Virus record (IMG/VR): IMGVR_UViG_3300020405_000676
Span: 1-61,861 of that record
DNA from: a virus
Direction: 5' to 3' (one strand)
DNA: 61,861 nt
Below, piece by piece: positions 4,726 through 43,855 of the stretch (the first letter of the stretch is position 1; each line of letters begins with the position of its first letter). The notes below the pieces were generated by a model that was given only the letters and a program-made list of their open reading frames with translations, was not told the DNA's origin and did not search any database. The translations under genes and the position numbers were made by a program.

Positions 4726-7401
4726 CTATTGTGATTTCCACTTACGCACAATGTATTTCATTACTACATTGCTTGTTGGAGGAGTAACATTGTTGTCTGC
4801 TGTAATACTCACAGTACCATTTGCCATTGAACCGTTAAATTCAACCGCACCCGAATAGTAAACATTTCCATTTGCATGATAATCATGAGACGAAGAACTA
4901 ACATCTTGTAACGTTACAGAACCTGAAACATTACCATTAGCATCTGTTTGAGATAATGGATTAGCATTATAAATTAATGTACCTACTTGATTGTAATATC
5001 TTGTAATAGAACTATTACCACTATCTAATGCTTGACCTACTAAAGAGTAATCTATAAAGAATGTATCAATAGCAGTAGAGTCTGTTCCTAAATCAGGTAG
5101 AGCAATACCTGTACCTGATCCAATTGTTAATTGCTTAGGCTGTGAATAGAATGTATCTGCTGTTCCAGATTGTAATGCTTGAGTAGTAAGTACTTCAATA
5201 TTAGTTTTAATTGTAACTAAACCTCTTTTATCAGGACTATTTGTTTTGAAGTATAATTTGTTTATTACTTCTGCAAAGTGCCCTGCTTCGTCACTACTTG
5301 CAAAATCTATTTCACCGTTTGTAGTATCTACATCTATTTTCCATGTACCTAAACTTTGTACGTCTGCATTATCACTGAACTTATCATTTATGAATACGTC
5401 AGAAACAATATTGACTTTATTATCACTTAAAACTTTTGTCAACCAAACTTCTAATTTTGCTTTTACTGTGTTGCCGCTTCTTGTTGCGTATGATCCTGAA
5501 GTTAAACCTAATGCACCTAAACTGTCAACGGTGTCTTGTGGGTCATTGAATAATCTATACTGAGTTTGGTCATCACTAATAACATATATTTCATCATTTG
5601 TATCTGGTTTCAAATTAAATGAGAACCATTGATTTTTGCCGTTTACTAAAGACATTATTCCATTTAATGTTGTTTGACTAGATGTGTTTAGTAAGTATGC
5701 TGGTTTAATTGTAAGACCATCTGCTGTAGTAAGATTTGATACATTTGGATTAAAATTACCTGTTACATTGGCATCTACAGCCGCATTAGATTGTATAAAG
5801 AATGTATTGTTTGTAATATTACTAGTATCTGCTAAACTGAAATTTGCATTATTTATTAATGTAGTATTGGAACTACCTGTTACAATAATGCCTGTAGTTG
5901 TATTTGAAACGTATCCATGTTCTGCACTAAATACCTGTATAATATTTGCAGTACCTGTTTGTCCTACGTTTACAAAATCTAGCCCACTTGTTATACCACC
6001 TGTAAGTGCGGCTTCTGTAATTGTAAATGTTCCAGAGCCACTATTAACACTTGCTACAGTATATGGACTTCCAGAAACTAAAGTAGTGTTACCTATAAAT
6101 GTAACGTTGTCTCCATTTCTTAAACCTTCCACGTTTGCTGTAAGTGTAACAGTATTACTAGAATCAACTGCCGCTGTTACACTTCTACCTGTTGACCAAC
6201 TATTAGAAGGTAACGTTACTGTAAAAGTATTTGCTACACTATTTGCTGATATAGGTAAAAGTTTTTTATGGTAGTAACTGTTAGTGGATGCTGTAACTGT
6301 TCCATCTGTTGAACCACCTTCTGTCCAAACATAGCCATTATATCCGCCATCTGCATTTGCTAATTCTGTAAATGCAATATTTTCAGAACCTGTATCAAAT
6401 GTTATTGTTGAATTGGCAAAATCTACTGAACTTGTAACATTACCAATACCACTATAAATTGTGTTATTAGCATTTGCAGAATCTACAGTTGTAAGTGAAG
6501 GATCTTTTGGATCTTTAGCAAAAATAATATTACCTGTTGTGATGTTGCTTACATTTGCAATACCTGAACCTTCTGTAACAACGTCTATGTGTTTTTTCTC
6601 TAATCCAATAAATCCTGTTCCTACTTCTGGATTGACTAAAACTAAATCACTATCAATATATCTATATGAAGGAATATTCATATTAGCATGGAACCCTGTT
6701 AAAGTAGAACCACTTGCTATAGTTGTGTTTGATAAAATGTGATTTACATGTGAATTGCCATAGTATGTAATTGCAACATCATCTGAATTAGTTGGTGCAT
6801 ATCTTAAATATAATGAATGGTCACTAGTACTTAAATTACCACTTACAAAATTATAATCGAATGCTGTATTTACAGTTGCACCTGTTCCACTAGAATCACC
6901 GTGTTGTGGTTTGTTATTTACTAGAACTGTAATATCGTCTGCATTAAAAACTCTTGTTGTTTGGTTTTGAGTAATGAAGTTATTGCCTGAAACTGTGTCA
7001 TCAAATACTGTTCTTGCTACAGAAGTACCATTTGATAATGTTAAGTTTGCTGAAGATACTAAAGTTGTATTTGCTTTCCAAGATTTTGCTTTTGTTACGC
7101 CATCAAAAGATCCTGAACCTTTTGGGTATCTAATATGTGGAACAGTAAATTTAATTATTTGTGCATTTGCTAAACTTAATGTAGATGCAGAAGCACCTAA
7201 TGTATTTTCAAATGATACAGTTTTATTGTATGTTGAACTAATTAAATCATCTGTATCAGCACCTATATAAATTTGTTTGCTATCTGTAGCAAAACCTATT
7301 TCTCCAGGTCTAAGAGGTTGAGGTAAATCTTGCTTTAATCCTCTTCTCTGCTGGATTCTGCTGATTATTATTTTTAAATTTGCATCGTCTTGGTGTGACA
7401 T
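4726..7401 (-). CDS. Tail-fibre/adhesin-like structural protein (891 aa)
   Basis: Residues about 15-50 contain an RRG...LRPGEIGFATDSKQIYIG segment typical of the N-terminal attachment module of phage tail fibres and tropism determinants. The rest is low-complexity beta-structured sequence very rich in N, T, S, G and V, consistent with a trimeric fibre with many repeats. There is no catalytic motif. A late promoter (7429-7436) lies 28 nt before the start, as expected for a virion gene. It likely contributes to host recognition, but its exact position in the tail (long or short fibre, or baseplate decoration) cannot be told. Confidence 0.7.
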   Translation of the reverse strand: MSHQDDANLKIIISRIQQRRGLKQDLPQPLRPGEIGFATDSKQIYIGADTDDLISSTYNKTVSFENTLGASASTLSLANAQIIKFTVPHIRYPKGSGSFDGVTKAKSWKANTTLVSSANLTLSNGTSVARTVFDDTVSGNNFITQNQTTRVFNADDITVLVNNKPQHGDSSGTGATVNTAFDYNFVSGNLSTSDHSLYLRYAPTNSDDVAITYYGNSHVNHILSNTTIASGSTLTGFHANMNIPSYRYIDSDLVLVNPEVGTGFIGLEKKHIDVVTEGSGIANVSNITTGNIIFAKDPKDPSLTTVDSANANNTIYSGIGNVTSSVDFANSTITFDTGSENIAFTELANADGGYNGYVWTEGGSTDGTVTASTNSYYHKKLLPISANSVANTFTVTLPSNSWSTGRSVTAAVDSSNTVTLTANVEGLRNGDNVTFIGNTTLVSGSPYTVASVNSGSGTFTITEAALTGGITSGLDFVNVGQTGTANIIQVFSAEHGYVSNTTTGIIVTGSSNTTLINNANFSLADTSNITNNTFFIQSNAAVDANVTGNFNPNVSNLTTADGLTIKPAYLLNTSSQTTLNGIMSLVNGKNQWFSFNLKPDTNDEIYVISDDQTQYRLFNDPQDTVDSLGALGLTSGSYATRSGNTVKAKLEVWLTKVLSDNKVNIVSDVFINDKFSDNADVQSLGTWKIDVDTTNGEIDFASSDEAGHFAEVINKLYFKTNSPDKRGLVTIKTNIEVLTTQALQSGTADTFYSQPKQLTIGSGTGIALPDLGTDSTAIDTFFIDYSLVGQALDSGNSSITRYYNQVGTLIYNANPLSQTDANGNVSGSVTLQDVSSSSHDYHANGNVYYSGAVEFNGSMANGTVSITADNNVTPPTSNVVMKYIVRKWKSQ

Positions 7402-15191: not shown

Positions 15192-15199
15192 TATTTAAC
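15192..15199 (-). promoter_or_regulatory. Variant late promoter abutting a GTG start
   Basis: The minus strand reads GTTAAATA, 5 nt, GTG. The core deviates from the consensus; position and spacing are the main support. Confidence 0.4.
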
Positions 15200-16887
15200 T
15201 ACTTTTTCTTACGTCCGGACTTCATGTTGGCACACCAGTGATACATTTTTGACTTCTCACCACTGCTGTCTTTTGCTTTTTTGCGTAGACTTGTTACTGA
15301 ACCTTTACAACTTGCACCTGCACGTTTTACTCTGCCTGGACGACTTTTGCCTTTCTTTTTGCCGTCAGCAAAATTTTCTATAATCTCTGCTGGAATTACA
15401 TCTCTGCCAACACGTTTTGCTTGATACACTCTGTGAAAACCATCAAGTATTGTTTTGCCATCTACATCTAACAGTATTGGTTCATCTAAATCAACACCTA
15501 CATCTGGATCAACATCTATTACTCTACTAAAACGGTCATCATGTGCTTCGTCATCTAAGTCTGCTACTTTGACTTTGATTAGTTTGGTCTTTTTGCCTTT
15601 GATATAATCTTTAACAGCAGGATTTAGATTTCTTTCATCTAATTGTTCCAGTTCATCTATAAATGGTTGTGGGTCCATGTCTTGATTTTCAAACTCATCT
15701 ATAAAGTTTCTTAATTCAACTTGGTATGCTTTTTTTAAAATTCTTGGATCTTCGTTGCCAGTAAAGTTGCTAATCTTTTTTTTAACTGTATTCATATTGT
15801 CATCAAAGCCATGCTCTTCTTCTCTGTCTTGGCTCATATAGTCCCAAACATCTTTAAGCATTTTAACACCATTTATATTTACATACTCTCTTTTTACATA
15901 AGTGCCTGGAAAATTAATAACTTCTGCTTCTGACATTTTAGATTTAAGTAAATCTTTAAAATAGTTTTCCTGCATTACTGCTCTATCACTTGTTTTATCT
16001 TTGAATACATCCATTACTTTTTCTATGTCTGCGTCAACTATAATTGCAGGAACACGTTTAATACCTAGTATATTAGCGGCATCATATCTATGATGACCAT
16101 TTATCAAGTATCCTCTTCTATCTAAAATAAAAGGTCTGTCTACTTTTTTAAGAAATACGTCTTCTGCTTTTTTACTTAATCCATCTACACGTTGAGATTG
16201 TACAGGTTTTATTTTGTCTATACTAATTGTACCTTCTTTGTATTTTAAATCTGATTTATCTAAATGTTTTCTTCTAATTTGTGGCAATTGGTTTCTATCA
16301 AAATGTTTATCACTAACACCTCTATTATAACTTTCTTCTATACCTTTTCTTAAACGTATAACACCACAGGCAAGTCTTTCTCCTGCATTACCTGTTTTTA
16401 AACTTTCTTCATCTCCACCCAAACCTAAGTCATCTTCGTCTGCATGTATAACCATTGCTCTGCCTACAACACTTCGGTCACCACTCAAATCAACACGTCT
16501 TGCAACAATTTTGAATCTAGCAATACCTTGTTCATCTGCTACAATATTGCCTAAGTCGCCTACATGTCCTTGCATTAAGTCACCATGGTCAACTCCGTCT
16601 GGATTGTAATGACCTCCAGCACTATCACAACCATCACTAAGGTCGCCAAACTCATGTATATGTATTCCGTGTTTGCCAGGTTTAAGTCCTTTAATTTGTC
16701 CTCTGATTATTGTAGGTTTGTTTGGTTCTTGTTTTAAAACAATACCGCCTGATATATCGCCTTCAACATGTTCTAGTTGAACTACTGCTTTTACTATTTC
16801 TTCTGCTTCACTGATTGTGTTTAAAGATTCGCATTGGCAACTTTTTTCTTTTGTTCTAGGACAACTTTTGAATTCTGATGCTCTCAT
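15199..16887 (-). CDS. Cu/Zn superoxide dismutase fused to two ParB-like domains (562 aa)
   Basis: Residues about 31-179 form a complete Cu/Zn superoxide dismutase, which converts superoxide to hydrogen peroxide. The ligands H76, H78, H93, H101, H108, D111 and H148, the disulphide pair C87/C174 and the guiding R171 (GNAGERLACGVI) are all visible. Two ParB/Srx-like domains follow, with LINGHHRYDAA (about 260) and LDGFHRVYQAKRVG (about 490), of the kind that bind or cut DNA or hydrolyse nucleotides. A Lys/Cys-rich tail ends the protein. The N-terminus has no ordinary signal peptide, but SLNTISE-AEE gives an I-x-E protease site directly before the SOD domain. It overlaps the giant gene upstream by 1 nt and is likely late. 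Packaging in the head is inferred. Confidence 0.92.
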   Translation of the reverse strand: MRASEFKSCPRTKEKSCQCESLNTISEAEEIVKAVVQLEHVEGDISGGIVLKQEPNKPTIIRGQIKGLKPGKHGIHIHEFGDLSDGCDSAGGHYNPDGVDHGDLMQGHVGDLGNIVADEQGIARFKIVARRVDLSGDRSVVGRAMVIHADEDDLGLGGDEESLKTGNAGERLACGVIRLRKGIEESYNRGVSDKHFDRNQLPQIRRKHLDKSDLKYKEGTISIDKIKPVQSQRVDGLSKKAEDVFLKKVDRPFILDRRGYLINGHHRYDAANILGIKRVPAIIVDADIEKVMDVFKDKTSDRAVMQENYFKDLLKSKMSEAEVINFPGTYVKREYVNINGVKMLKDVWDYMSQDREEEHGFDDNMNTVKKKISNFTGNEDPRILKKAYQVELRNFIDEFENQDMDPQPFIDELEQLDERNLNPAVKDYIKGKKTKLIKVKVADLDDEAHDDRFSRVIDVDPDVGVDLDEPILLDVDGKTILDGFHRVYQAKRVGRDVIPAEIIENFADGKKKGKSRPGRVKRAGASCKGSVTSLRKKAKDSSGEKSKMYHWCANMKSGRKKK

Positions 16888-19800
16888 TATAACGTACCTT
16901 TCTTAAGACTCAATTGAGCCCATTGCTCTCTACCAGCACCAGCCTGTGTAGGTATTATACTTATAGATGTTGCCATTGCATGACCACTACGTCTAAATGC
17001 AATTAAATCATTTTCATTTTTAATCATAGCAGTTTTTTGATTAGGAATACTTATCAAAAGCAATCCATCAAAATCATCTCTATCTTTATACCATAGGAAA
17101 TTTTGTTTGAGATATACATTCTCAATTTCTTCTGCGTTAGTATTGTTTGCTATTACATCTGCAATAGGACCAGCATAGTTTTCCATATCCATAGAAAATA
17201 AATCTAATGCAAGTTGTCTTCTAATTTTTTGATTGTCTGAATCTGTAGTTGGTAAATCTTGATTTATTCCATTTATAAATTTTGAAAATCCTAAACTTCC
17301 TCCAACGGAACCAATACTATCAACTACAGTTGGAATACGGTCTGCATATTTTTCTATTATGGCTCTTTTTGCTTTTTGGCTTCCGCCACCATAACCAATT
17401 CTTCCACCAGTACTACTAGTAGCCGCTTTTAATTCTACTTTACCAATACCTTCAATTTCTAAATCACCTTCACCAGATGCTAACCTTATCTTATTACTTA
17501 AACAGGCAAGTCCATATTCTCCTGGTCCTTTTTGATTTACACCAACACCGTATGCTGTTAATGAAACAAATGCTTTGGTGCTTATGTCATCACCGAATAC
17601 ATTTGCAAATGTGTTTAATGGCTTATCTAATTCTTGTATGTTTACAACTGTACCAGTCTTTTCTAATCTATCTATAAACTTGCTCATAGTACCATAATCA
17701 CTGTCTATGCTACCAATAATTTTTGTTACATCTTGTATAACTTTTGCTTTTTGTTTATCCGATAAAGGTTCATCCATCAAAGGAAAACTAAATGCTTTGT
17801 CTAATGTTTTACCTATATGTTCACTGTTGAGCAGTTTATAAATTCTATCTAACAAATTTGCATGTTGCTCATTTGTAGCATCTAATCCACTTATAGTTTT
17901 TATTATATTGTCTTTCTCGGTACTTAAATCTGTATATTCATTTAAAAGTTTAGTTATATGTTGTTTGCTCCATTCTTGCAAATTTACTTTTTTCTTTTCT
18001 TCTTCTGGCAAAGCATCAACATAAAATCTTAAAATGTTTCTAGCACATGCATCATCTCCTGCATCTGCTCTTAATTGTCTAAATGCATCTAGCATAGAAG
18101 GTAAAGGTATTGCCTGATATGCCAACATTTGTTTTTTCAAATCACCAACAGGAAAATGGTCTGCTAAAAGTTTGTTTATAATTTCAATTCTGTTAAAATC
18201 ATTAACACTTTCTTTTGCCATTTTAGTTGCTGTTGCGTACATAACTGCTTTGGCATCTTTACCATAACGTTTTTCAAAATCACCTTTAGACTTCTTCATG
18301 CCTTTTACATATTTTTCTTTGTCTTTCTTTTCGTCTTTTGTTAAAGGTCTTTCATTTACTTTGCTTTCTTTTTTCTTTTTGCCAGCACAATGAGCCTTTT
18401 GACTAAAGCCTTTTGGATTACTGCAATTGATACTTGCTTTGTATTTCTTACTCCACTTTTCTAATACTGTTGATTCATTTATAATACGCACCTGTTCTTC
18501 TAATGGTAATTTGTCAAACTTATCAAAAGCACTTTCTCTTCCAAGCATTCTTGCTCTGGCTTCTTGAGGATCAGGATTTTGACGTCGCAACGTCTCACGT
18601 TGCATTAATTGTCTACCTAAGGCTAAATGACCTTGGAAGTCATTTGGTGCTGAACCTTCTAATTTTTCTTTCATCATGCTTTTTAAAACAGCCTTTTTGA
18701 AATTTTCATCATTGTCTGGATTTTTAAGAAAATCTACTAATCTGTTTACGTCGGGTCTGACCATATAATTTTGCATACCCGCATTCATCATCCTATCAAA
18801 TTCAATATATTTGGATCTGACTGCTTCGTAATCTGCTTCTGTGGTGTTTTCGCCATCATTTCTGCCTCTTCTACTTGGTGGAGGTTGAGAGCCCGTATCA
18901 CCGTAAATAGCACCTACATCATCTCCAGGACTGCCGTCTGGATTTTTTCTAAAATAGTTGCCAGCACTTACTGTATAATTCATTTTGATATATTCTGCCG
19001 CGGCTTTTACAGATGCTACCCATCTTGGTAAACAACAAACTGTTGGATCTGGCTGTGGTCTCCATTCGTGGTCACCGTCAAATGTTCTAGCAACTTTCTC
19101 CAACATGTTTGGGCCTTGGTTGTCTATACCCTTTTCTATTTTAAGGAAGTTTGCCAAGTTGTTCCAATTTGCGGCATCTTGAATGCTGTTAGATGCTTGA
19201 CCATCCATGTGTTCAACGCCAGCGGCATCTATAATTTTTTGGTCTGCTATTACTTGTACACCTTTTGGTGTGCTTTCCATTACTTCTCTAATTGCTTTAT
19301 AGAAACCATTATTATTTTTTTCCATGTTTTGAACAACCATAGACTTAATCTTTTCTGATTCTGCACCATGGTACTTTTTAAAATCATATGCCGCAAGTGC
19401 TTTGGCTTCATTGCCTTCATCTAATATCCAATTAATAGCACTACTTCTATTTAAAGGCTCACCTGAATATTCATTTGCTAATTTTTTAGAAGGGATAAGT
19501 TCTTCGACATCTCCCATTCCTGCTCTGCCGTCTAATTTACCAGTGAATTCGATTTGCATTGATTCTGCAATGATGTTTCTATCTCTGCCATCTAGCATCT
19601 CATATTTTTCTTCATTTCTTAATGTTTTATAATGTATTTTATATGTATCACCAAACTTATCCATAAGTTTCACATAATTTTTTAATCGCCAGTTTTGACT
19701 CATATCACCAGTTTTTTGTCTTTTTTGGATTTGGTCCATTCCTTCTATAGCATCTTGCAATGGTCCCCAATGTGCGGATGGTACAACATAAAAGACTCCT

Positions 19801-22800
19801 CGACTTTGTTGGTTAACTCTTTGTGCTCCTTCTATTACTTCTCTTTGCGTTCTAGAATCTACATTTCCGTTTACTATAGTATCAAATAATTCTTTTTCCA
19901 TAAACGAAAGTGAATGTGCAGGAATATTAATTGTTGCAAATGAACTGTTTCTGACATTTTTCTTAAAGTTATCTCTGTCTTTTGTTAATTGTTGTTTACG
20001 TTTGATAGCATCATCCTGACTGTCAAATCCATTGTCTACAAAAATTTTGTCTAAACCACGCATGAAGTCTCTAATTCCTTCGAATCTAGACTTTATAGTA
20101 TTTTTTATTTCATCAAATTTATAATAATAAGGATAACGTTCTTTGTTTCTATAATAAGAACCCAACATTTCTCTTAATGTGTCTGTTACATAATCATTGA
20201 TATTGTGAACAGTTCTACTGTCTGTGGTATTCCTAACAATATCATCTAACGTGCCTTGTATATTTTCATATTTGTAAGTTCTAACACCTAGGAATTGGTC
20301 TCCATCTCTTTCGCCTAATAAATCCATGTACTCTTCTTTTTCTTCATCTGACATATTAGGTAAGTCTCGTACTTCATCTCTACTGATTCCTAATATGTTT
20401 GACCATTCATCATCATCTGATTTATTTGTATCATAAAATTTAGCAATTATAGGTGCCATTTTTTGCAATGTTTCAACTGCTTTGGATTTATCTGTTTCAT
20501 ATTGTTGTTCTAAAAACGCGAATCTTCTTCTCAACAACATTGTGTAATTGCTTAATGCTACATCTTCGTAAGAATCGTCACTATAGATGTTTGGATTATG
20601 ATTCCTACTAACAGGTTCATTGTAAGAATCAAATTGTTTTACATACTGAAGCAATTTAGTATAACTTGGTCTATCAAAAATCATTCCTGTTTGCAAGAAT
20701 AATGGTTTACTGCTATATCCTGAAGTTGTCAATTTGTTATAAAAATCGTTAAACTGTCTTTTTTCACTTGCGTCTTTTATTAAAGATGAAATTTCACTTT
20801 CAATATCAGCAGTATCACCTAGCCTATCTGGACCTAAACGAACATCAATTGCCATTTGTGTAAGTTTTTTCAATACCTTTGAATCAAACTCTTTATTGTT
20901 GGCAACATTCCACATGCCTTTTGCTATTGCTTCTACTTCTGGTGCTGAAACAAAGTCTGGTTTTCTTATAATGTCTTTTTGAAGTAATTTATTAATACCA
21001 TCTTTAACAATTTGTACTTTTGTTTGTTGATTTAATTTTACAGAACCTGTTTTTCTGTGGTCCCAAACTAAAGATTCTATTGCTGTTATTACATTAAATT
21101 CAATTTCTCTTTCTGTGATTTCATTTTTCTTTATGAAACTTCTTAAGGCACCTATACTTTTTGCATTAGGCTGTTGCCTTGCTAATCCAGATGATACATC
21201 TATTGCCAACATACCCAATGCTTCACTGAATTTTGATAAACTTTCACCTCTCAATTCTATTGCTGTTTCACTAGGTGGATTCATTGCTGGTCTAAAGTAT
21301 GCTTTTATTGACCGGTCTTGTTTAACTTCTTTTACTCCGCCTCTTTTTGAATATTTTATTTTGTCTAATTTTCTTTTCAAAGAACTGTCGAAATCGTCTA
21401 AACTATCTGAAGTGTTTTCAAGATATTCCATCCATTGTTTTTTCCACTTGATGTCTGCTTTTGGATCTAAACTGTCAGTTGCTCTTTGCAATCCTTCCAT
21501 TGCACTCAACATAAGTTTAGTAAATTCTAAGTATTTTCTAGAACTTATCATTGCTTTTGATGTGTCTAACAAAGGATCTGCAGAAACATCTGAATACTGT
21601 CCTTTTAGATTTTCAACTTCTTCAACATCTCCTTGACTGATATCACTTGCTTTTCTTAGTAATCTTGATAATGCTTTTACATAATCGCCTTGATATTGGT
21701 CTGTGTGCCCAGCAACCATTGTGGTAGCATATCTTACTACTGCCTTAAATACTTTATCAAAGTCTTGTTCGTAGTCTTCGCCACCACCTATTCTAAACTC
21801 TATAAGATTTGTGTTAGTTTTAGAATCAGTTTGATTCTTAAAATGTATAGAACGGAATTTGTCTTGGCTTATAGCCTTTTCTAAAAATGCTTCTGCTTTT
21901 TTTATTCCTTCTGAGCCACCTTCTTGTTGCAAAGTTTTTACAGCATCTTCTAATTCTCTGTATTGGCTTTTTGTATAAGTGTTACTGCCTCTAAAAAATG
22001 TGCCTAATAGATATTGGTCGCCTAATAATACAGCCATTTTAACTTTATTTGCTATTACTTTGCTTGAACCTGGTTTATAGTTTACAGTTTCACCATCTTG
22101 TGGATTGTAACTCATTGTGACGTGTAATCCAGTACTGCTGTTTGTAAGTGCTCCTTCACTTTGCAGGAACTCAAAAAACTTTTTCATTTCTGCTAACATT
22201 CTTCTTGGAGTACTAAACACTGGTGATATGATTTCTGCACCTGTTCCATATCCGTCAATACTACTGTCTGACTCTACTGCATAATTTTTTGTACTACCAC
22301 TAGTGTTACCATAGTCGCCATGTTCCACAGAGTCATCTGAAAAAGCACTATTATTTCTAACAAATGCTGAAACAAGTTCGGCAACTTCACCTAGATTGTT
22401 TCCTGTGCTGTAATCAATACCATAATCATCACAAAATGAACTCATGCTGTACCAATTGTCATTGATCCAATCGTCATAATCATGATTTTCACTGGCTTCT
22501 TCATATGCATTTTGTCTTACATCGTCATCTTCTACTGCTAATTCTCTTAAATATTCTCTAAAGTCTGACCCTCTGTATTCATCAACATATTCTCTTGCCC
22601 AATTTTCATCTTCATATCCGTACAATTCTGACAGTTCTTCAGCACCTTCTTCTTCAAATCTTTCATCACCGTATTCTTGTCTCAGTACGCCTTCTCTGTA
22701 ATCATCCCAATCTGCTTCTTCTATACCTGAATCGTCTATATAATCGTTGATGTAATCTTCGTCATCTTCACGTTCGTTGACCCACTCAGCAATGGCATCC

Positions 22801-23564
22801 TCTATGTAATCATCTACTTTGTAATCATAAAGCCACTCTGTATATTGTTCTGATATGCTATCCCAATCAACACCTCCGAACTCTTCATCGACTTGATTAA
22901 GAGTCATATTGTCTACATCATCATCTACACCTTCTATATTTTCCCAAACAGTTTCTGCCTCCCAGCCACAACGTATTTGTGCATCTAGTGAACTGTTTAT
23001 TACTTCTTTTCTATTAAAGTTTATTTCGAATAATTTTTCTTCTGCTTCTTTTAAACCCAATCTAGCAAGTCTTTTAATTTTCTTCTTGCCGTCTTTTACA
23101 AGTGAAGATAATTTGTTTGCATTTTTCTGTGATAATTTTTTAACTTTTTTATTTTCCTCTAAATCTACAAACACCTCATCTTTAGGATCTAGTAATTGAT
23201 ATTCGCCCTTTTTATCTTGTACAACAACTTTGTCTGGTTGTGGTTTGTCTCCAACTTTACTGACAACTTTTCCTAATACTTCGCCTTTTTCATCTTTGTA
23301 TTCTGCATCTACTTCTAATTCTCCTGTTTTAATAGGAGTAAATTTTGGTTGTTCTTGTTCTGGTTCTTTAACATCAAGTCCGGGTGTTGTTGTTGGACTG
23401 CCTAAGTCTTTTTGTGGAGGCGTTTTCTTATCTACTGTTGGACTCTTAGCATTTGCTTTTGCATTTGCTCCTGTTGATTGTTGAGATGTTGGAGTACTTG
23501 AACCAGGCTTCATACCATATTCAGTTAGTATAGACTCTATAGTTCTAACGTCTTTAAACTTCAT
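16887..23564 (-). CDS. Giant multidomain protein with amidoligase and nuclease-like domains (2,225 aa)
   Basis: The protein begins MKFKDVRTIESILTE-YGM, a capsid-targeting-like N-terminus, then a Pro/Thr/Lys linker to about residue 110. An amidoligase-family (ATP-grasp-like) domain is split by a very acidic insert (about 200-380). Its parts are GWEAE (about 200), YGTGAEIISPVF (about 435), GLHVTMSY (about 481) and NLIEFRIGGG (about 587). A long helical region follows. SINCSNPKGFSQKAHCAG (about 1710) and a YGKDAKAVMYATATKMAKE module are motifs I recall from marine myovirus virion proteins. Near the C-terminus GPGEYGLA, GDLEIEG and VELKA (about 2013-2044) resemble a PD-(D/E)XK nuclease. It is transcribed with the SOD fusion and a basic protein. 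Injection into the host is inferred. Confidence 0.8.
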   Translation of the reverse strand: MKFKDVRTIESILTEYGMKPGSSTPTSQQSTGANAKANAKSPTVDKKTPPQKDLGSPTTTPGLDVKEPEQEQPKFTPIKTGELEVDAEYKDEKGEVLGKVVSKVGDKPQPDKVVVQDKKGEYQLLDPKDEVFVDLEENKKVKKLSQKNANKLSSLVKDGKKKIKRLARLGLKEAEEKLFEINFNRKEVINSSLDAQIRCGWEAETVWENIEGVDDDVDNMTLNQVDEEFGGVDWDSISEQYTEWLYDYKVDDYIEDAIAEWVNEREDDEDYINDYIDDSGIEEADWDDYREGVLRQEYGDERFEEEGAEELSELYGYEDENWAREYVDEYRGSDFREYLRELAVEDDDVRQNAYEEASENHDYDDWINDNWYSMSSFCDDYGIDYSTGNNLGEVAELVSAFVRNNSAFSDDSVEHGDYGNTSGSTKNYAVESDSSIDGYGTGAEIISPVFSTPRRMLAEMKKFFEFLQSEGALTNSSTGLHVTMSYNPQDGETVNYKPGSSKVIANKVKMAVLLGDQYLLGTFFRGSNTYTKSQYRELEDAVKTLQQEGGSEGIKKAEAFLEKAISQDKFRSIHFKNQTDSKTNTNLIEFRIGGGEDYEQDFDKVFKAVVRYATTMVAGHTDQYQGDYVKALSRLLRKASDISQGDVEEVENLKGQYSDVSADPLLDTSKAMISSRKYLEFTKLMLSAMEGLQRATDSLDPKADIKWKKQWMEYLENTSDSLDDFDSSLKRKLDKIKYSKRGGVKEVKQDRSIKAYFRPAMNPPSETAIELRGESLSKFSEALGMLAIDVSSGLARQQPNAKSIGALRSFIKKNEITEREIEFNVITAIESLVWDHRKTGSVKLNQQTKVQIVKDGINKLLQKDIIRKPDFVSAPEVEAIAKGMWNVANNKEFDSKVLKKLTQMAIDVRLGPDRLGDTADIESEISSLIKDASEKRQFNDFYNKLTTSGYSSKPLFLQTGMIFDRPSYTKLLQYVKQFDSYNEPVSRNHNPNIYSDDSYEDVALSNYTMLLRRRFAFLEQQYETDKSKAVETLQKMAPIIAKFYDTNKSDDDEWSNILGISRDEVRDLPNMSDEEKEEYMDLLGERDGDQFLGVRTYKYENIQGTLDDIVRNTTDSRTVHNINDYVTDTLREMLGSYYRNKERYPYYYKFDEIKNTIKSRFEGIRDFMRGLDKIFVDNGFDSQDDAIKRKQQLTKDRDNFKKNVRNSSFATINIPAHSLSFMEKELFDTIVNGNVDSRTQREVIEGAQRVNQQSRGVFYVVPSAHWGPLQDAIEGMDQIQKRQKTGDMSQNWRLKNYVKLMDKFGDTYKIHYKTLRNEEKYEMLDGRDRNIIAESMQIEFTGKLDGRAGMGDVEELIPSKKLANEYSGEPLNRSSAINWILDEGNEAKALAAYDFKKYHGAESEKIKSMVVQNMEKNNNGFYKAIREVMESTPKGVQVIADQKIIDAAGVEHMDGQASNSIQDAANWNNLANFLKIEKGIDNQGPNMLEKVARTFDGDHEWRPQPDPTVCCLPRWVASVKAAAEYIKMNYTVSAGNYFRKNPDGSPGDDVGAIYGDTGSQPPPSRRGRNDGENTTEADYEAVRSKYIEFDRMMNAGMQNYMVRPDVNRLVDFLKNPDNDENFKKAVLKSMMKEKLEGSAPNDFQGHLALGRQLMQRETLRRQNPDPQEARARMLGRESAFDKFDKLPLEEQVRIINESTVLEKWSKKYKASINCSNPKGFSQKAHCAGKKKKESKVNERPLTKDEKKDKEKYVKGMKKSKGDFEKRYGKDAKAVMYATATKMAKESVNDFNRIEIINKLLADHFPVGDLKKQMLAYQAIPLPSMLDAFRQLRADAGDDACARNILRFYVDALPEEEKKKVNLQEWSKQHITKLLNEYTDLSTEKDNIIKTISGLDATNEQHANLLDRIYKLLNSEHIGKTLDKAFSFPLMDEPLSDKQKAKVIQDVTKIIGSIDSDYGTMSKFIDRLEKTGTVVNIQELDKPLNTFANVFGDDISTKAFVSLTAYGVGVNQKGPGEYGLACLSNKIRLASGEGDLEIEGIGKVELKAATSSTGGRIGYGGGSQKAKRAIIEKYADRIPTVVDSIGSVGGSLGFSKFINGINQDLPTTDSDNQKIRRQLALDLFSMDMENYAGPIADVIANNTNAEEIENVYLKQNFLWYKDRDDFDGLLLISIPNQKTAMIKNENDLIAFRRSGHAMATSISIIPTQAGAGREQWAQLSLKKGTL

Positions 23565-36611: not shown

Positions 36612-37078
36612 TTCTTAAATATTTCCTTTACTTCTTTATCATCATAACCATTAGCAAGTGCAAGTTCTTTCAAAGATTCATCATCGTTCAAACTTAAAAA
36701 TAATTCAATTTCATCTGCTTTTAAATGAGGAAGAACACTACTGACAAAGTCTCCTCTTTTACTTTTCTTTTTTCTACTGTTTGGTGGTTTTATATATGGG
36801 TGGTGTTGCACTTTACCACTGCCAGCCGCAGTCATTAATAACCATTGTAGTTCAGGATGTTTGCTAACATCAGTAAACTTATGATTTACTAATTCATTTA
36901 CCATCCAAACATAATCAGGTGCTGACTTTCCTTGTACACTACTAGCATATCTCATCATCATCCAAGGACTAAATGCTTTCTTTTGTTCAGCATTTAATTT
37001 GTTATACCAGTCTCTATCCTTTTTATCGATAGCCTTCATAACTTCTGCTAGTGGTATCTGTGGTTTTTTAGGCACCAA
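36608..37078 (-). CDS. 62: Clamp-loader small subunit (gp62-like, 156 aa)
   Basis: Residues such as FSPWMMMRYASSVQG, PELQWLLMTAAGSG and KADEIELFLSLND fit what I recall of gp62 from marine T4-like phages. With gp44 (not in this window) it would load the gp45 sliding clamp. The start overlaps the end of the MTAN gene by 11 nt. The assignment rests on remembered motifs and context. Confidence 0.6.
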   Translation of the reverse strand: MVPKKPQIPLAEVMKAIDKKDRDWYNKLNAEQKKAFSPWMMMRYASSVQGKSAPDYVWMVNELVNHKFTDVSKHPELQWLLMTAAGSGKVQHHPYIKPPNSRKKKSKRGDFVSSVLPHLKADEIELFLSLNDDESLKELALANGYDDKEVKEIFKK

Positions 37079-37598
37079 GTATCTCCATATAGTGCGGTTC
37101 TCCGTCTGCTACAGTCTCATGCCATTCTTTGCTGGCATTTTCATTTGCACTATCACTTATATATTTAAAACACTTAAAGTTTACATTGTGGTATTGGCAA
37201 GCCTTTGCAATAGCATAAGCCTCCATGTCTACCACATCAGCGACAATATCCAATAAGGAAGTATCAGTAACAAAATTATCACCAGTGCTACAACACATAC
37301 CATTATCTTCTCCAAAATTTATTACAATGTCTTTTTCAAAAGGTGTTTGTCCAACTTCAAAACCCATCTCACAACACTTCATATCACGTTGTACAAAGTT
37401 TGTTATTTCGTGTATTCCACTTTCAACTGTTATGCCACCTGCTGTACCAAAGTTCCATACTGTAGATGGTTTATATTTTTCTATAAGTGCTGATGCTTTT
37501 ATGGCGGCATTTACTTTTCCCACACCAGTAAAAAACACATTGTCCCATTTAGACATGTTAGGTGCTTCTTCTTTTAATGCAATTAAAATGATGTCCAT
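37068..37598 (-). CDS. Methylthioadenosine/S-adenosylhomocysteine nucleosidase-like protein
   Basis: The 176-residue protein is a short member of the PNP/MTAN family. It shows the nucleophile/phosphate-side segment GVGKVNAA, NFGTAGG, STGDNFVTD and the substrate segment VDMEAYAIAKAC, plus YISDSANENA with the usual catalytic aspartate. It would release adenine from methylthioadenosine or related nucleosides. The start codon directly follows the APRT stop (TAAATG) with GGAG inside the APRT end, so the two are tightly coupled. Confidence 0.85.
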   Translation of the reverse strand: MDIILIALKEEAPNMSKWDNVFFTGVGKVNAAIKASALIEKYKPSTVWNFGTAGGITVESGIHEITNFVQRDMKCCEMGFEVGQTPFEKDIVINFGEDNGMCCSTGDNFVTDTSLLDIVADVVDMEAYAIAKACQYHNVNFKCFKYISDSANENASKEWHETVADGEPHYMEILGA

Positions 37599-38132
37599 TT
37601 ATTCTCCTTCAAACTCCATTATGCATTTTACATCATATCCTTGTTCTTTTATTATAGCACTTCCTCCCAAGTTGGGCAAGTCTATTACTGCAACAATTAA
37701 AATATCTTCTTTAGGAATATTCCAATGTTCATGTATTAAATCGGCACAGGCTAGTGCTGTACCTCCTGTAGCAACCAAGTCATCTACAATAGCAACTTTG
37801 CCTTTTATGGGAGATATTTTTTGGATATGTAATTCTGTTTCGCCGTATTCTAATTTAAAAGATTTACTAACAGTAGGATTAGGTAATTTGCTTGGCTTTC
37901 TTGCTAATATAAAAGGCAAATCAAACTTTGTTGCAATGGGAGTTCCAAATACAAAACCTCTGCTTTCAATACCAACAATACAATCTGCATTAAATTTAGC
38001 AACATGAACACTAAGTTCTGTAATACTTTGTTTAAATGCAGTTGCGTTTTCTGTAATACTTGTAATATCTCTAAACTGTATTCCAGGGATAGGATAATCA
38101 GGTATTGTTCTTACAATATCTTTAAGAATCAT
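37599..38132 (-). CDS. apt: Adenine phosphoribosyltransferase
   Basis: APRT converts adenine and PRPP to AMP. Visible motifs are IQFRDIT, CIVGIESRGFVFG, the flexible loop region ARKPSKLPNP and the PRPP-binding VAIVDDLVATGGTA. The length (177 aa) is standard. It overlaps the acidic protein gene upstream by 11 nt and is followed without gap by the nucleosidase. The pair can recycle adenine freed from SAM-derived nucleosides into AMP. Confidence 0.93.
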   Translation of the reverse strand: MILKDIVRTIPDYPIPGIQFRDITSITENATAFKQSITELSVHVAKFNADCIVGIESRGFVFGTPIATKFDLPFILARKPSKLPNPTVSKSFKLEYGETELHIQKISPIKGKVAIVDDLVATGGTALACADLIHEHWNIPKEDILIVAVIDLPNLGGSAIIKEQGYDVKCIMEFEGE

Positions 38133-38868
38133 CTTCCATCTCTGCGTCGTAATCTTCCCAATATTCTGACAAGTCTTCTTCAGATGGATCTTTGTATTCG
38201 TCTCTCCATTTGTCTGTGCTCCAACCTACTGCGGCTTCGTAACTTTTGCCCATTGTGTCGTTCATATCATAGTTGGCTTCTAACCAAACTTTGTCGTATG
38301 CTAAATCCTCTACAAATTCTCCCATGTGCGTTTCGTTTACTGTCATAACAAGTTTCTTTTCATCAAAAGGTTCATCTGTATCCACAAACCAACTTGCAAA
38401 GCCACCTTTTTCCACACTCATAAAAATCATTACAGGCGTACAACCTTCCGGGCTTTCACCATTAGCATCAGTACTAATGTATGCACCTTCTCTGCCTTTG
38501 AGCCAATGTGCTTCTGCACTCACTTCATTTTCCCAATCTCCGCCCCAATCATCTGAGCCGTCAGTTGGTACAGGTGTTACTGTAAATCCACCATCTGCAA
38601 AAGCGGCATTGATATGCTCTTTGTCATCTACTTCATACCAACCAGGTATTTCATTGCCATCTTCAAAAATGTCAGGTGAATCAGAATCTAATCCTACATC
38701 ATCGTCCCATTCTGAAAGTGCTAACACATGGTCAATGAAACCACAACTGTGTGCTCCATCTTCTTCAATTTTAGGTGTCCAATATTGTGCAAAGTCTTCT
38801 GAGACTGTGCCTACAGCACATTCGCCTCCATATCTGCCACCATCTATTCTATATCTATATTTTGCCAT
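38122..38868 (-). CDS. Acidic hypothetical protein (248 aa)
   Basis: The protein is strongly acidic, rich in D, E, W and G, with SEWDDDVGLDSDSPD, DDWGGDWENE and an acidic tail DYDAEMEDDS. The N-terminus is MAKYRYRIDGGRYGGE. A strong AGGAGG ribosome binding site precedes it. DNA mimicry would suit the charge, but no family is recognised. Confidence 0.7.
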   Translation of the reverse strand: MAKYRYRIDGGRYGGECAVGTVSEDFAQYWTPKIEEDGAHSCGFIDHVLALSEWDDDVGLDSDSPDIFEDGNEIPGWYEVDDKEHINAAFADGGFTVTPVPTDGSDDWGGDWENEVSAEAHWLKGREGAYISTDANGESPEGCTPVMIFMSVEKGGFASWFVDTDEPFDEKKLVMTVNETHMGEFVEDLAYDKVWLEANYDMNDTMGKSYEAAVGWSTDKWRDEYKDPSEEDLSEYWEDYDAEMEDDS

Positions 38869-38877
38869 AATTTCCTC

Positions 38878-39381
38878 CTAATCTAGCAAATGCGAAACAT
38901 CGATTTCATTAGGAATCTTGTTTGCTTCTTTTACAAAAAATGCACACTTAGGATTAGGTTTATTCTCTAAAGGTGCAACCAACATGTGTCCGTTTTTTAA
39001 TTTAGGAAAGTACCACTTTACATCTTGATAGATGTTAGTAATTTTTACTTCTTCACATTCTATTAATTTTCTTCCTAAAGGATTTAATGTTGCAGTTAAA
39101 AATCCTCTATTGTTTAAACTTGTCAAAGGTATTACTTCTATTCCACTTAAATCTTCATCTGTTATTGCTATGCTCCAATCCATTGGCATTTGAATTGTTT
39201 TATCACCTATTTTTAAACAAATAGCAGGTGCATAAAAACTCTCCAAGAATATCAATGGCAAAAAGTAATAATCCATAAACTCAGGATCTGTTGTGTCAAA
39301 CACACAAAAACGTATGTCATCTATTACATCAGGCACATGGTCTATTTCATAAACGTCGTTGTCGACTGTTAATATTTTCAT
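38878..39381 (-). CDS. Conserved hypothetical protein next to uvsW (167 aa)
   Basis: A mixed alpha/beta soluble protein starting MKILTVDNDVYEID, with VKWYFPKLKNGHMLVAPL near the C-terminus. It overlaps the uvsW stop by 4 nt (ATGA), so it is expressed with the helicase. I recognise no domain. Confidence 0.65.
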   Translation of the reverse strand: MKILTVDNDVYEIDHVPDVIDDIRFCVFDTTDPEFMDYYFLPLIFLESFYAPAICLKIGDKTIQMPMDWSIAITDEDLSGIEVIPLTSLNNRGFLTATLNPLGRKLIECEEVKITNIYQDVKWYFPKLKNGHMLVAPLENKPNPKCAFFVKEANKIPNEIDVSHLLD

Positions 39382-40835
39382 TTATACTCCAATTTGGTTA
39401 CTTGAAAAGGAAAACCCTGCTCTTTATAAAATGCTTTTCTTTTTGTCAAGTGTCTTTTACTATATTTTAAATTACTCGTAATGTCAATTACATTCAAATA
39501 GTCTTTGTCCTCGGCTTTACGAATTCCTCTTCCGATACTTTGTATTACACGAACAAAACTTTTACCTGGCTCTAATAAAACCAAATTAAAAATTCTAGGT
39601 ATGTTAATACCAACTGCCGCTACACCATAAGTTGCAACTATAACTTTATTATCCATTTCACTAACTTCTCGGTATTCTTTTTGCCTATCAGCAACTTTCA
39701 TATCTCCACTTATGAATACCCATTCAGGAAACATATCAGATAATATTTCACCTGTTGCAATTCTGTCTATTAATACAAGTGTATTTCCAGAACCGCTTAT
39801 GCTAGTAATAATACTGCTAATTTCTTCGATTCTGTCTTTGTCAGTTACAAGCCATTTTAACTCTTGAGCATAATTGTTAAATCCTAATACGCCGTCTTGC
39901 AACTGAATTATATTGATATCTAAGTTTGCTAGTACACCTTTTTCTTGTAACTCTTTACTACTTAAATTACCAATCACTGGTCCTAAAGAACAAACACAAC
40001 CAACTGCTTCATGTTCATCTTTAGGTATTGTTCCTGTCAAACCCCATCTAACAGGAACATTTCTAAATGGTCCACCTAATAAATTTCTCAGTACATCTGC
40101 TTTTGCTTTGTGTACTTCATCGACCATTATACATACAACCCCATCTAAGAAATCATCTATGGGGAAATCTGCTTCATATTTTTTACTTTTCTTTTCTAGT
40201 ATTGCTAAACTTTGCCATGTGCAAATTGTATGTGTCTTATCATATTCTTTCCTATCTCCGAATAGTACACCAACATCAAGTCCTAAATTTTTATAGTCTT
40301 TTTCTGTTTGTAATACTAAGTCTTTGTTAGGAACAATTACTATTGTTCTACCATACTGTTCACACAAATCGCTTAAGGCGGCTGTTATGAGCGTCTTACC
40401 GGCACCTGTAGCCACCTCCTGCAAACTTTGTGGGTTTTTTAAAAAGTTGTTTATTACGTCAACTTGATAGTCTCTGAGTATAATAGGTTCACCTTCTGCT
40501 GGATGACCTTTGGGCCATGCAATATCATCATATTTGGTTTGTTCTATTTCCTCAAACTCAAATGACCAAACGTTTCTGTTGTCTTGTACTTCAACATCAT
40601 ATCCTGCTTGTTGTACAATAGGAAGTAATCTATCAAGTAGATTCATATATGTTCTACCGCCAACATCGCAGAATCGAACACAACCATCCCATCTACCTAA
40701 CTTGTAAGCAGGCATATGATATGCATACGGTAAAAAGTATTTTACTTCATCGGATATCTTGCGTCTAGTTTTAACGTCAAGTCCAACAAATTTTACATTT
40801 ACTTCATCTCGTATTTCTAAGATACATTTAGCCAT
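39378..40835 (-). CDS. uvsW: UvsW superfamily 2 helicase
   Basis: UvsW remodels branched recombination and replication intermediates. The 485-residue protein has an N-terminal UvsW-type domain (AYHMPAYKLGRWDG), the Q/Walker A motif EVATGAGKTL, VDEVHKAKAD, LTGTIPKDE and the SF2 motif VI QSIGRGIRK. It lies 11 nt from the end of the TonB-receptor gene and may be partly co-transcribed with it. Confidence 0.93.
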   Translation of the reverse strand: MAKCILEIRDEVNVKFVGLDVKTRRKISDEVKYFLPYAYHMPAYKLGRWDGCVRFCDVGGRTYMNLLDRLLPIVQQAGYDVEVQDNRNVWSFEFEEIEQTKYDDIAWPKGHPAEGEPIILRDYQVDVINNFLKNPQSLQEVATGAGKTLITAALSDLCEQYGRTIVIVPNKDLVLQTEKDYKNLGLDVGVLFGDRKEYDKTHTICTWQSLAILEKKSKKYEADFPIDDFLDGVVCIMVDEVHKAKADVLRNLLGGPFRNVPVRWGLTGTIPKDEHEAVGCVCSLGPVIGNLSSKELQEKGVLANLDINIIQLQDGVLGFNNYAQELKWLVTDKDRIEEISSIITSISGSGNTLVLIDRIATGEILSDMFPEWVFISGDMKVADRQKEYREVSEMDNKVIVATYGVAAVGINIPRIFNLVLLEPGKSFVRVIQSIGRGIRKAEDKDYLNVIDITSNLKYSKRHLTKRKAFYKEQGFPFQVTKLEYK

Positions 40836-40846
40836 ATGTAATTATA

Positions 40847-42592
40847 CTACCACTTCCTTTGCATTGTCAACATAAATTGTCTGCCACGGTTATTATAACC
40901 AGGAAGAACTTCAACTTCTTCATCTAGCATATTATCGATACTTAAAGCCAAGTCTACATCATTAGCAAAAGTCTTAATATATCTAAAAGATAAATTATGT
41001 AAATCTTCTAATTCATCACCATCATAAGGACCTGGTTTTCTATTAAACTGTCCTCTAAATGTAATATCAAATTCGTGACTACCAAAAGATTGATTCCAGC
41101 CAAGTACACCCATGTACTTAGGAACTCTTGCTTGGTCTGTATCAGTAACAGCAAGTGCAACTTTAAATGCTCCAAATTCTTGTGCATATCTTAAGCCTTG
41201 TGTTTCGTATGCACCTGTATTGTAATACTTAGGAGCATTCCAAACTTGCTCTGTTGTTGTAATAACTGTAGTCTCTCCTGTTTCAGGATCAGTTACAGTT
41301 TCAGATGTAGTAACATCTTCATAAAAACCAGGTGTGTATTCTATTGCTTGTTCAAATTCATATCTAAACAAACTTAATACACCAAATCCAATTTCATAAC
41401 CAATTGCTTCTTCAGGTAATAAATCTGCATTAGCACTTACATAGCCGTCGCCATTTAATTCATACAATGTAGGTCTTCTATAACTATTACCAACATTTAA
41501 AAAGAATGGTCCACGTTCTAACCCGAATCTCAATGCATTCTGGTCTTCATTACCAACTCTAAAACCAAAGTTATATTTCATGGCAAAGTCGGCATTTATG
41601 TTTAAGTAAGCACCATAATTATCTCTATCATAATCATCTGTGAGTGTTTTATACTGTTCATGACTTGCATCAACACCATAACCTACTTGCAGTTTGTTAG
41701 ATAGGTCCACTTGGTCTCCTACTCTCAAATAGTCTGTGCTACTTTCATTGTAATATGATAACCAATCACCTGTTGTGTAATTTGCTTTATCATGTGTTCT
41801 ACCTAGTGTAAAATATTCATTATTTACTGCAAAGTTATATTTTTCACCATCTTGTTTACAATCATTTGATGCTTCAAAATTAGAATCATAACAGTTATCA
41901 TAATCATATCTATAATCAGTATAATCTGCTGTTATAGTAAAGTCTTGGACATCAATATTAAATTTTGCATTCTTATTTGAATACAAATCTTTTTCCACAT
42001 TGTCATTTCTAACACTATCTTGATTAGTTTCCATTGCAGTATATTGAAACCAATTTGTTGGTGCTATACTAACAAAGCGGTGTGACTGCGTTCCAAATCT
42101 AGCAGTTACGCCTTGTTCAATATTATCTTTAATCAAAATTGTGCCAGCAATACTACCGCTACCATATACAACACTATTGGCACCTGAGATAACTTTAACC
42201 TTTTGCCCAGTTGCTAAATCTGTTCCAAAGTCATACCAAGCACTACCAGGTAAATTTGCTGGTATCCCATTTTTGTAAACTGCCGTGTGTACTGTTTGAG
42301 CACCACGTTCATTGTATCCTTGAAAAGCACCATCACCACCTGCTGTCCAAGTGTGTGCTGGAAGTAATACTCTTATAAAGGATGATTCTTTTAGTGGGTC
42401 TGCTTTCACAGTTTTTACTTGTTGTGCCACTACCACAACTTCTTCTATTTCTTCTGCCTTTGCTTGTGGGCTCAAACATACTGCTATTGCAAATATAATT
42501 GACCATGCAAACATGGCATACATAGGAGAGAAATTTAAATGAAAATTCCTTTTCCACTCTCTCTCCTGACGTTCCTTATCTATGATATTCAT
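40847..42592 (-). CDS. TonB-dependent outer-membrane receptor (581 aa)
   Basis: The protein has a bacterial signal peptide (hydrophobic FAWSIIFAIAVCLS, cleavage after AKA at about residue 46) and a TonB-box-like EEVVVVAQ (50-57). A plug domain (about 64-156) carries VYKNGIPANLPGS and the plug end motif GANSVVYGSGSIAGTILIKD. A 22-strand-type beta barrel follows, with aromatic-girdled strands, ending in the outer-membrane C-terminal aromatic signal MLTMQRKW. The size is near the lower limit (BtuB-like). Such receptors import B12, siderophores or glycans using TonB energy and are also common phage receptors. It has a near-consensus sigma70 promoter and GGAG binding site, and is flanked by phage genes on the same strand. 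Substrate unknown. Confidence 0.9.
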   Translation of the reverse strand: MNIIDKERQEREWKRNFHLNFSPMYAMFAWSIIFAIAVCLSPQAKAEEIEEVVVVAQQVKTVKADPLKESSFIRVLLPAHTWTAGGDGAFQGYNERGAQTVHTAVYKNGIPANLPGSAWYDFGTDLATGQKVKVISGANSVVYGSGSIAGTILIKDNIEQGVTARFGTQSHRFVSIAPTNWFQYTAMETNQDSVRNDNVEKDLYSNKNAKFNIDVQDFTITADYTDYRYDYDNCYDSNFEASNDCKQDGEKYNFAVNNEYFTLGRTHDKANYTTGDWLSYYNESSTDYLRVGDQVDLSNKLQVGYGVDASHEQYKTLTDDYDRDNYGAYLNINADFAMKYNFGFRVGNEDQNALRFGLERGPFFLNVGNSYRRPTLYELNGDGYVSANADLLPEEAIGYEIGFGVLSLFRYEFEQAIEYTPGFYEDVTTSETVTDPETGETTVITTTEQVWNAPKYYNTGAYETQGLRYAQEFGAFKVALAVTDTDQARVPKYMGVLGWNQSFGSHEFDITFRGQFNRKPGPYDGDELEDLHNLSFRYIKTFANDVDLALSIDNMLDEEVEVLPGYNNRGRQFMLTMQRKW

Positions 42593-42621: not shown

Positions 42622-42649
42622 ATTATACGTCTTATACAGGAAAAGTCAA
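42622..42649 (-). promoter_or_regulatory. Sigma70 promoter of the TonB-dependent receptor gene
   Basis: TTGACT (42649-42644), 16-nt spacer, TATAAT (42627-42622), with a leader of about 25 nt containing GGAG. Confidence 0.85.
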
Positions 42650-42668: not shown

Positions 42669-42693
42669 GAAGCCCGGAAGAAATCCGGGCTTC
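42669..42693 (-). terminator. Terminator after the AAA+ ATPase gene
   Basis: A perfect 10-bp stem, GAAGCCCGGA (669-678) with TCCGGGCTTC (684-693), loop of 5. On the minus strand it is followed by an A/T-rich stretch with short T runs. It insulates the receptor promoter from upstream transcription. Confidence 0.8.
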
Positions 42694-42759: not shown

Positions 42760-43794
42760 TTAAATGACTCCTTTCATACAAGTAGTTCTGGCTAAAGCCT
42801 GCCAATTGTTTGGCTCCATTTTCCTAAGGTCGGAAATCTTAAGAACCATCCTTAAAGATATCTCTCTAAGTTTGTCAGTGTTCTCAATCATGAAGTCAAT
42901 AATTTCTTTATCGCCTTCTTCACCGAACTTGTATTCTTCAAGCATACCGTCTCTAACAATTTGCTTGATTCTAAGGAACTTATCTCTAGCAGAGTTCATT
43001 GTAAGATCCAAGTAATGACATCTTGACATAAGTGCTGACAAGTGGTCTTTTATCTTCTTAGAACGGACGTTTTCAAAATCAACGTTAGTAATAAAGATAC
43101 AACCACCTTTGAACTCAAACCTATCAGGTATTCCTTCTCTACGAAGTGCATTAGATTCTGACTTCCAAGTAATGTAACGTTTCTTACCCGAGTCAAGTGT
43201 AGCCTTAAGCATGTTCAAACATACTTCATCAAACAGTACACTATCACAGTCATCAAATACTAATATGTTACCTTTTTCTGAATTGTTGAAAAGTGTCTGG
43301 AACAAACCAATTGGCGTAACAGAACCTTTTACAACTTCAGTTCTTGCAGGTTTGCCAGCAACTTCTGTAAGCATGTCGTAATCTTCTAATACAGATTCAA
43401 CACCAAAAGACTTACCAACTCCTGGAGGGCCACTTACAATCATACCTCTAACAGTACCTTCTGCAACTGCATGAGTCATTCTGTCCAAAATATCAAACCT
43501 TTCACGAATACGTTCAATGGCTTGCTCATCGGACTCTTCCTTCTGCTCTGCAGGGGTATTGTCGATTTTAGGTTGCTCGGCATATATAGCCGGAGTTACA
43601 TATTCAAGGTCCTGTGTAGGATCTTCTATAAGTACTCGGATTTTGCTGAACTGGTCTCCAAGGACTTCAGTACCATCTACAGTAATGAAAGCACCTTTCT
43701 TACCAATGTTTAAAGGCTTAACAATAGGAAAAACCATGTTATCAACAGTATTCTTCCTGTATGTGCCTTGTTTAATTTTTACAAAGTTAGTCAT
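42760..43794 (-). CDS. AAA+ ATPase (344 aa)
   Basis: The start is set at the ATG at 43794 because GGGAG lies 5 nt upstream. The protein has an N-terminal accessory domain of about 120 residues, then SGPPGVGKSFGVE (Walker A), ILVFDDCDSVLF (Walker B), IFITNVDF (sensor 1) and a helical lid. It resembles single AAA+ ATPases found in T4-like and other marine phages near recombination genes. The substrate is unknown; remodelling of nucleoprotein complexes is likely. Confidence 0.85.
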   Translation of the reverse strand: MTNFVKIKQGTYRKNTVDNMVFPIVKPLNIGKKGAFITVDGTEVLGDQFSKIRVLIEDPTQDLEYVTPAIYAEQPKIDNTPAEQKEESDEQAIERIRERFDILDRMTHAVAEGTVRGMIVSGPPGVGKSFGVESVLEDYDMLTEVAGKPARTEVVKGSVTPIGLFQTLFNNSEKGNILVFDDCDSVLFDEVCLNMLKATLDSGKKRYITWKSESNALRREGIPDRFEFKGGCIFITNVDFENVRSKKIKDHLSALMSRCHYLDLTMNSARDKFLRIKQIVRDGMLEEYKFGEEGDKEIIDFMIENTDKLREISLRMVLKISDLRKMEPNNWQALARTTCMKGVI

Positions 43795-43827
43795 CTTTAC
43801 TCCCGTTTTGTTTAACTTATACATACT

Positions 43828-43855
43828 ATTATACTTCTTTTACGGGTGAAGTCAA
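43828..43855 (-). promoter_or_regulatory. Sigma70 promoter of the AAA+ ATPase gene
   Basis: TTGACT (43855-43850), 16-nt spacer, TATAAT (43833-43828). Confidence 0.8.

Follow-up and report, generated by a model that had tools for sequence, protein, structure and literature searches.

The window analyzed here, a 61.9 kb stretch of DNA that makes up a virus record, encodes TerL and UvsW proteins that have their nearest counterparts in jumbo phages such as PA5oct (54–57% identity). On its minus strand, an ORF of 581 aa (40847..42592) lies between the genes for a uvsW helicase downstream (39378..40835, minus strand) and an AAA+ ATPase upstream (phrog_1250; 42760..43824, minus strand), as an initial annotation made from the sequence had placed it. 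That annotation had further read in this ORF a signal peptide, a TonB-box-like stretch, a plug motif and an aromatic C-terminal end, all of which are present. The predicted signal peptide (residues 1–46; 42455..42592, minus strand), recognized from the sequence, the family alignment and signal-peptide classes, has a long n-region with the motif NFHLNFSP and terminates in AKA directly before EE. It is followed by the TonB box region EEIEEVVVVAQQ (residues 47–58; 42419..42454, minus strand), delimited by its conservation in 56 homologues, nearly all of which carry an IEEVVVxAQQ-type motif (mean entropy 0.77 bits). The plug domain (residues 72–157; 42122..42379, minus strand), supported by both the Pfam profile and the structural model, is matched by Plug (PF07715) with E=5.3e-7 and a score of 30.6 bits, above the gathering threshold of 23.9; the match spans profile positions 38–107 of 107, the first third of the profile having no counterpart in the window receptor, and all 21 members of family set A1 are matched by the same profile. 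The plug motif is YGSGSIAGTILIKD. The predicted β-barrel (residues 161–581; 40850..42112, minus strand) ends in a C-terminal tryptophan that is at least 90% conserved across the 56 homologues. Taken with the AlphaFold and Foldseek results below, the identification of this product as a TonB-dependent receptor that the phage encodes behind a sigma70-type promoter of its own is strongly supported.

An AlphaFold model computed on the 56 homologues (pLDDT 87.4, pTM 0.82) predicts a plug and a barrel, thereby yielding the plugged barrel that the initial annotation had put forward as a check; an earlier model from 21 sequences was poor (pTM 0.62), the alignment being too shallow. The 22 strands of the barrel were counted by hand from DSSP elements, with hairpins counted against BtuB. 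A Foldseek search of the PDB retrieved the BtuB:TonB complex as its top match (E=4e-22, TM 0.74, 19% identity). Further BtuB entries and additional TonB-dependent receptors rank next, and the best 50 matches listed are all TonB-dependent receptors. The TonB box and the plug rank among the most conserved parts of the protein. With loop borders drawn from DSSP and the BtuB alignment, most predicted outer loops (0.6–1.1 bits; L4 1.3) are more conserved across the 56 homologues than the barrel strands (1.38 bits) and the periplasmic turns, the only hypervariable ones being L5 and L8 (1.9–2.0 bits). Predicted extracellular loop 3 (residues 232–245; 41858..41899, minus strand) contains two cysteines, Cys234 and Cys245, invariant in all 56 homologues, and hhalign aligns it with one of the Ca2+-binding loops of BtuB. 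A weakly aligned stretch of the same comparison sets BtuB D179, D193, Y229 and D230 onto E200, D214, Y235 and D236 (numbered by hand), of which Y235 and D236 are not invariant among the homologues.

Upstream of the gene stands a predicted promoter, TTGACT-N16-TATAAT (42622..42649, minus strand), with 11 of 12 matches to the sigma70 consensus; the near-consensus promoter noted initially thus proves to be a conserved feature, scoring at least 11/12 in 42 of 45 representatives of the uvsW site as against 26 of 1120 shuffled regions. None of the 11 representatives of a second, baseplate-side context described below reaches this score. The same motif precedes the AAA+ ATPase gene (43828–43855) and a Toprim (primase-like) gene, and because it is common to these genes, early timing suggests itself; the arrangement is consistent with expression of the receptor early or in the middle of infection, together with the replication genes. 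A T4-type late promoter was also considered and rejected, as the window shows no enrichment of TATAAATA. Between this promoter and the AAA+ gene lies the predicted intrinsic terminator hairpin of the latter (42669..42693, minus strand).

A homology search, which the initial annotation had proposed among other marine myoviruses, recovered receptor homologues at the same site, between the AAA+ ATPase and uvsW, in dozens of contigs drawn from many IMG/VR samples, as well as in a second phage context, where the gene comes after a nucleoside-phosphorylase-like gene, with baseplate genes on one side and endolysin genes on the other. We then took the 80 nearest uvsW loci, found without regard to the receptor, and in 76 of these the receptor lies directly upstream of uvsW; it is absent from two (L274 and L275), and in the other two the upstream sequence is too short for its presence to be judged. 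The deleted site at L274 (3030–3545) retains tandem promoter copies and a signal-peptide stub, MNKMFTFAATMLLAF, which indicates that the receptor was lost there. No gene is annotated between the AAA+ ATPase and uvsW in the Pseudomonas phage Deifobo. Each of the ten records tested, including contigs of 217, 250 and 340 kb, encodes exactly one plug protein, and none of them has a TonB_C domain, as expected for a receptor that borrows the TonB of its host. Since genes of this class are typically bacterial, we also considered a host gene included in the contig by accident, or an assembly chimera; however, the synteny across many independent contigs, including the 76 of 80 uvsW loci, disposes of the chimerism raised at the outset. 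The GC content of the gene (34.7%) is close to that of the whole window (34.3%), and our searches turned up no close relative in bacteria, so that such an origin is exceedingly improbable.

Searches of deposited cultured phages found no relative of the receptor, and a loose-limit search of a phage collection returned as its only receptor the BtuB of Salmonella records lying there, which probably also explains the PHROG hit phrog_5687. We also considered recent capture from a bacterium and set it aside, since two bacterial genome scans gave no close relative, although such scans rely on conserved peptides and are therefore no proof. A profile search covering 395 genomes of one class, including a Flavobacteriia genome, with proteobacterial genomes lying outside its range, gave only weak, plug-level matches. 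With no cultured phage carrying it and no close bacterial relative found, the receptor looks phage-specific.

The receptor is under purifying selection, with dN/dS values of 0.09–0.29 as compared to 0.03–0.07 for uvsW. Its dS is often above that of its flanks (e.g., 0.71 versus 0.19–0.23 for the AAA+ ATPase and uvsW between the window and L003), and receptors of 49% identity occur beside neighbors that are 94% identical. The flanks of the window and L022 share 88–90% DNA identity up to 42653, where the terminator hairpin adjoins the edge of the swapped cassette, and again from the opposite edge at 40835, whereas their receptor proteins are 49% identical. In a uvsW tree the window, L003 and L022 group together; this grouping, named after the pairwise comparison, is rejected by the receptor tree (AU p about 4e-46). 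Moreover, receptors from the two genomic contexts are intermingled in their tree, which requires at least four changes. The conflict between the trees, the cassette edges and the interleaved contexts together indicate that a cassette comprising the promoter region and the gene has been exchanged between phages.

A further pattern concerns the signal peptide. Several pairs (e.g., L099/L161, L184/L185 and L024/L033) have mature receptors that are 96–99% identical behind two unrelated signal-peptide types, NFHxNFSP and FLYDNIVK; in the two pairs that were checked, the neighboring DNA is similar as well. The signal-peptide type does not fit either tree cleanly (5 and 6 changes on the receptor and uvsW trees, respectively), and the signal peptide alone seems to have been swapped between near-identical receptors.

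As to the ligand, the initial annotation had offered uptake of B12, iron or glycans, among which a B12-like ligand fits best by profile, fold and conserved loops. The family profile retrieves BtuB first among solved structures (2e-9), aligning nearly over its full length in one search, and hhalign of the receptor family to BtuB gives 97.6%. The TonB-B12 model TIGR01779 is the most frequent NCBIfam match of the family (39 of 56 members, best 1e-11), with no match to the window protein itself, and the score against the curated BtuB model (NF007926) is 21.3 bits, far from its cut-off of 836. The rank of BtuB may also be favored by length, since it is among the shortest TonB-dependent receptors. 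There is no match to the cobalamin riboswitch in the window, L022, L034, L105 or L116, and the ribonucleotide reductase of the window belongs to class I (NrdA/NrdB), which has no need of B12. A B12-binding domain scoring over the cut-off occurs in one protein each of the 340 kb and the 217 kb record, with a weaker relative in the 250 kb record. Radical-SAM proteins are encoded in the 340 kb (L311:708-2558) and 250 kb (L312:662-2731) records, their B12-binding domains falling over and below the Pfam cut-off, respectively; relatives of the former are encoded by ten viral contigs. The likeness to BtuB, the weakly aligned acidic residues and these B12-binding radical-SAM genes all point to a corrinoid, heme and other ligands being possible as well.

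We accordingly weighed a transporter for a corrinoid against one for another ligand, such as heme, a siderophore, a metal or a nucleoside-related compound. The latter draws on the heme-receptor models TIGR01786 and TIGR01785, which match 38 and 15 of the 56 members, respectively (best heme match 1e-8), on the presence of ShuA and ChuA-type receptors among the profile and fold matches, and on the position of the gene in its second context directly after the nucleoside-phosphorylase-like gene; yet B12 receptors score better in the sequence profile, the curated models and the fold, and we regard another ligand as rather unlikely. The main functional rival to transport is superinfection exclusion, also floated in the initial annotation, under which the phage receptor would compete for TonB or for outer-membrane insertion and so keep out competing phages or bacteriocins whose entry depends on receptors of this kind. 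A TonB competitor would likewise need the highly conserved TonB box, and the strong promoter beside replication genes, the exchange of alleles between close phages and the hypervariable loops L5 and L8 would all suit it, the swapped cassettes and these two loops being equally compatible with a role in immunity. However, a pure competitor for TonB would not need most of its outer loops to be more conserved than its barrel, a pattern more in keeping with a fixed ligand than with a pure decoy, and exclusion can be achieved with far smaller proteins, the Llp lipoprotein of T5 being a small exclusion protein. We found no positive evidence for exclusion, which we judge rather improbable.

The reading we prefer, while holding it slightly short of probable, is that the gene encodes a functional BtuB-type TonB-dependent outer-membrane transporter of a large marine myovirus lineage, with a corrinoid as its most likely ligand. 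Such a receptor would probably be made early, under the control of its strong sigma70-type promoter. Host machinery would export it and fold it into the outer membrane of the cell, where the TonB of the host would drive it through the conserved TonB box. Its cargo would be a small molecule in short supply, most likely a corrinoid (vitamin B12 or one of its precursors), with the infected cell gaining a limiting cofactor by a route outside host control. More tentatively, we propose that a phage-specific lineage of transporters runs corrinoid uptake in infected cells, its alleles and, separately, their signal peptides being traded among phages.

The closest known system, BtuB of Escherichia coli, has in common with the phage receptor the plug and 22-strand barrel, a similar size, the best fold and profile matches, and, in the weak alignment, acidic residues at positions of the Ca2+-binding loops. 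It differs in that identity is 19–24% and the score lies below the curated cut-off; the TonB box of the phage receptor is worded differently, the first part of the plug profile is unmatched, loop 3 bears an invariant cysteine pair, there is no cobalamin riboswitch, and the gene is phage-encoded. Another phage-encoded outer-membrane barrel in the host surface is the porin Lc of the lambdoid phage PA-2, a trimeric, prophage-made protein that replaces OmpC and, unlike the present receptor, has no TonB dependence. The initial annotation knew of no characterized phage-encoded TonB-dependent receptor. This stands with respect to characterization, the SusC-like receptors of megaphages being uncharacterized; however, such receptors were already annotated in the marine megaphages Mar_Mega_1 and LR745206, with a proposed role in raising carbohydrate uptake (PMC9723777), and they resemble the present case in being TonB-dependent receptors of very large marine phages for which uptake has been suggested. 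A viral SusC in BFVD (A0A8D9FQQ5, 805 aa, from an uncultured marine phage), probably the same as that of the latter study, shows 12% identity and a TM of 0.43–0.56 to the phage receptor, which thus belongs to a different family and is not of the SusC type. In the open-access literature we found no account of a BtuB-like receptor encoded by a phage.

The transport-related genes so far reported from phages mostly have products that work in the cell interior or at the inner membrane. The near-universal retention of the receptor in close relatives, together with its traded versions, suggests that these phages alter uptake by the infected cell. If so, a selected and exchanged outer-membrane receptor would mean that large marine phages change which scarce nutrients enter the cell that they infect, and perhaps also which other phages can enter it. 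The system lends itself to experiment, since it consists of a single protein of clear fold behind a single promoter, and natural lineages exist that have lost the gene.

Several other genes of the window, all on the minus strand, deserve mention. Downstream of uvsW, a gene for a 248 aa protein (38122–38868) with no Pfam match varies between close phages to roughly the same extent as the receptor does. At 37068–38132 a nucleoside-phosphorylase-like gene and a phosphoribosyltransferase stand side by side, and in the second context it is a relative of the former that lies immediately before the receptor. The 2225 aa ORF at 16887–23564 has one short PHROG match only, and no tRNA was found in the window. 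An 891 aa protein with an Mtd_N (major tropism determinant N-terminal) domain (4726–7401) is likely a tail-fibre protein, and a 562 aa protein (15199–16887) contains a Cu/Zn superoxide dismutase domain. Finally, a glutamine riboswitch (RF01739), which scores 43.9 bits where the gathering threshold is 35, lies at 614–746, upstream of whatever is cut by the end of the window.
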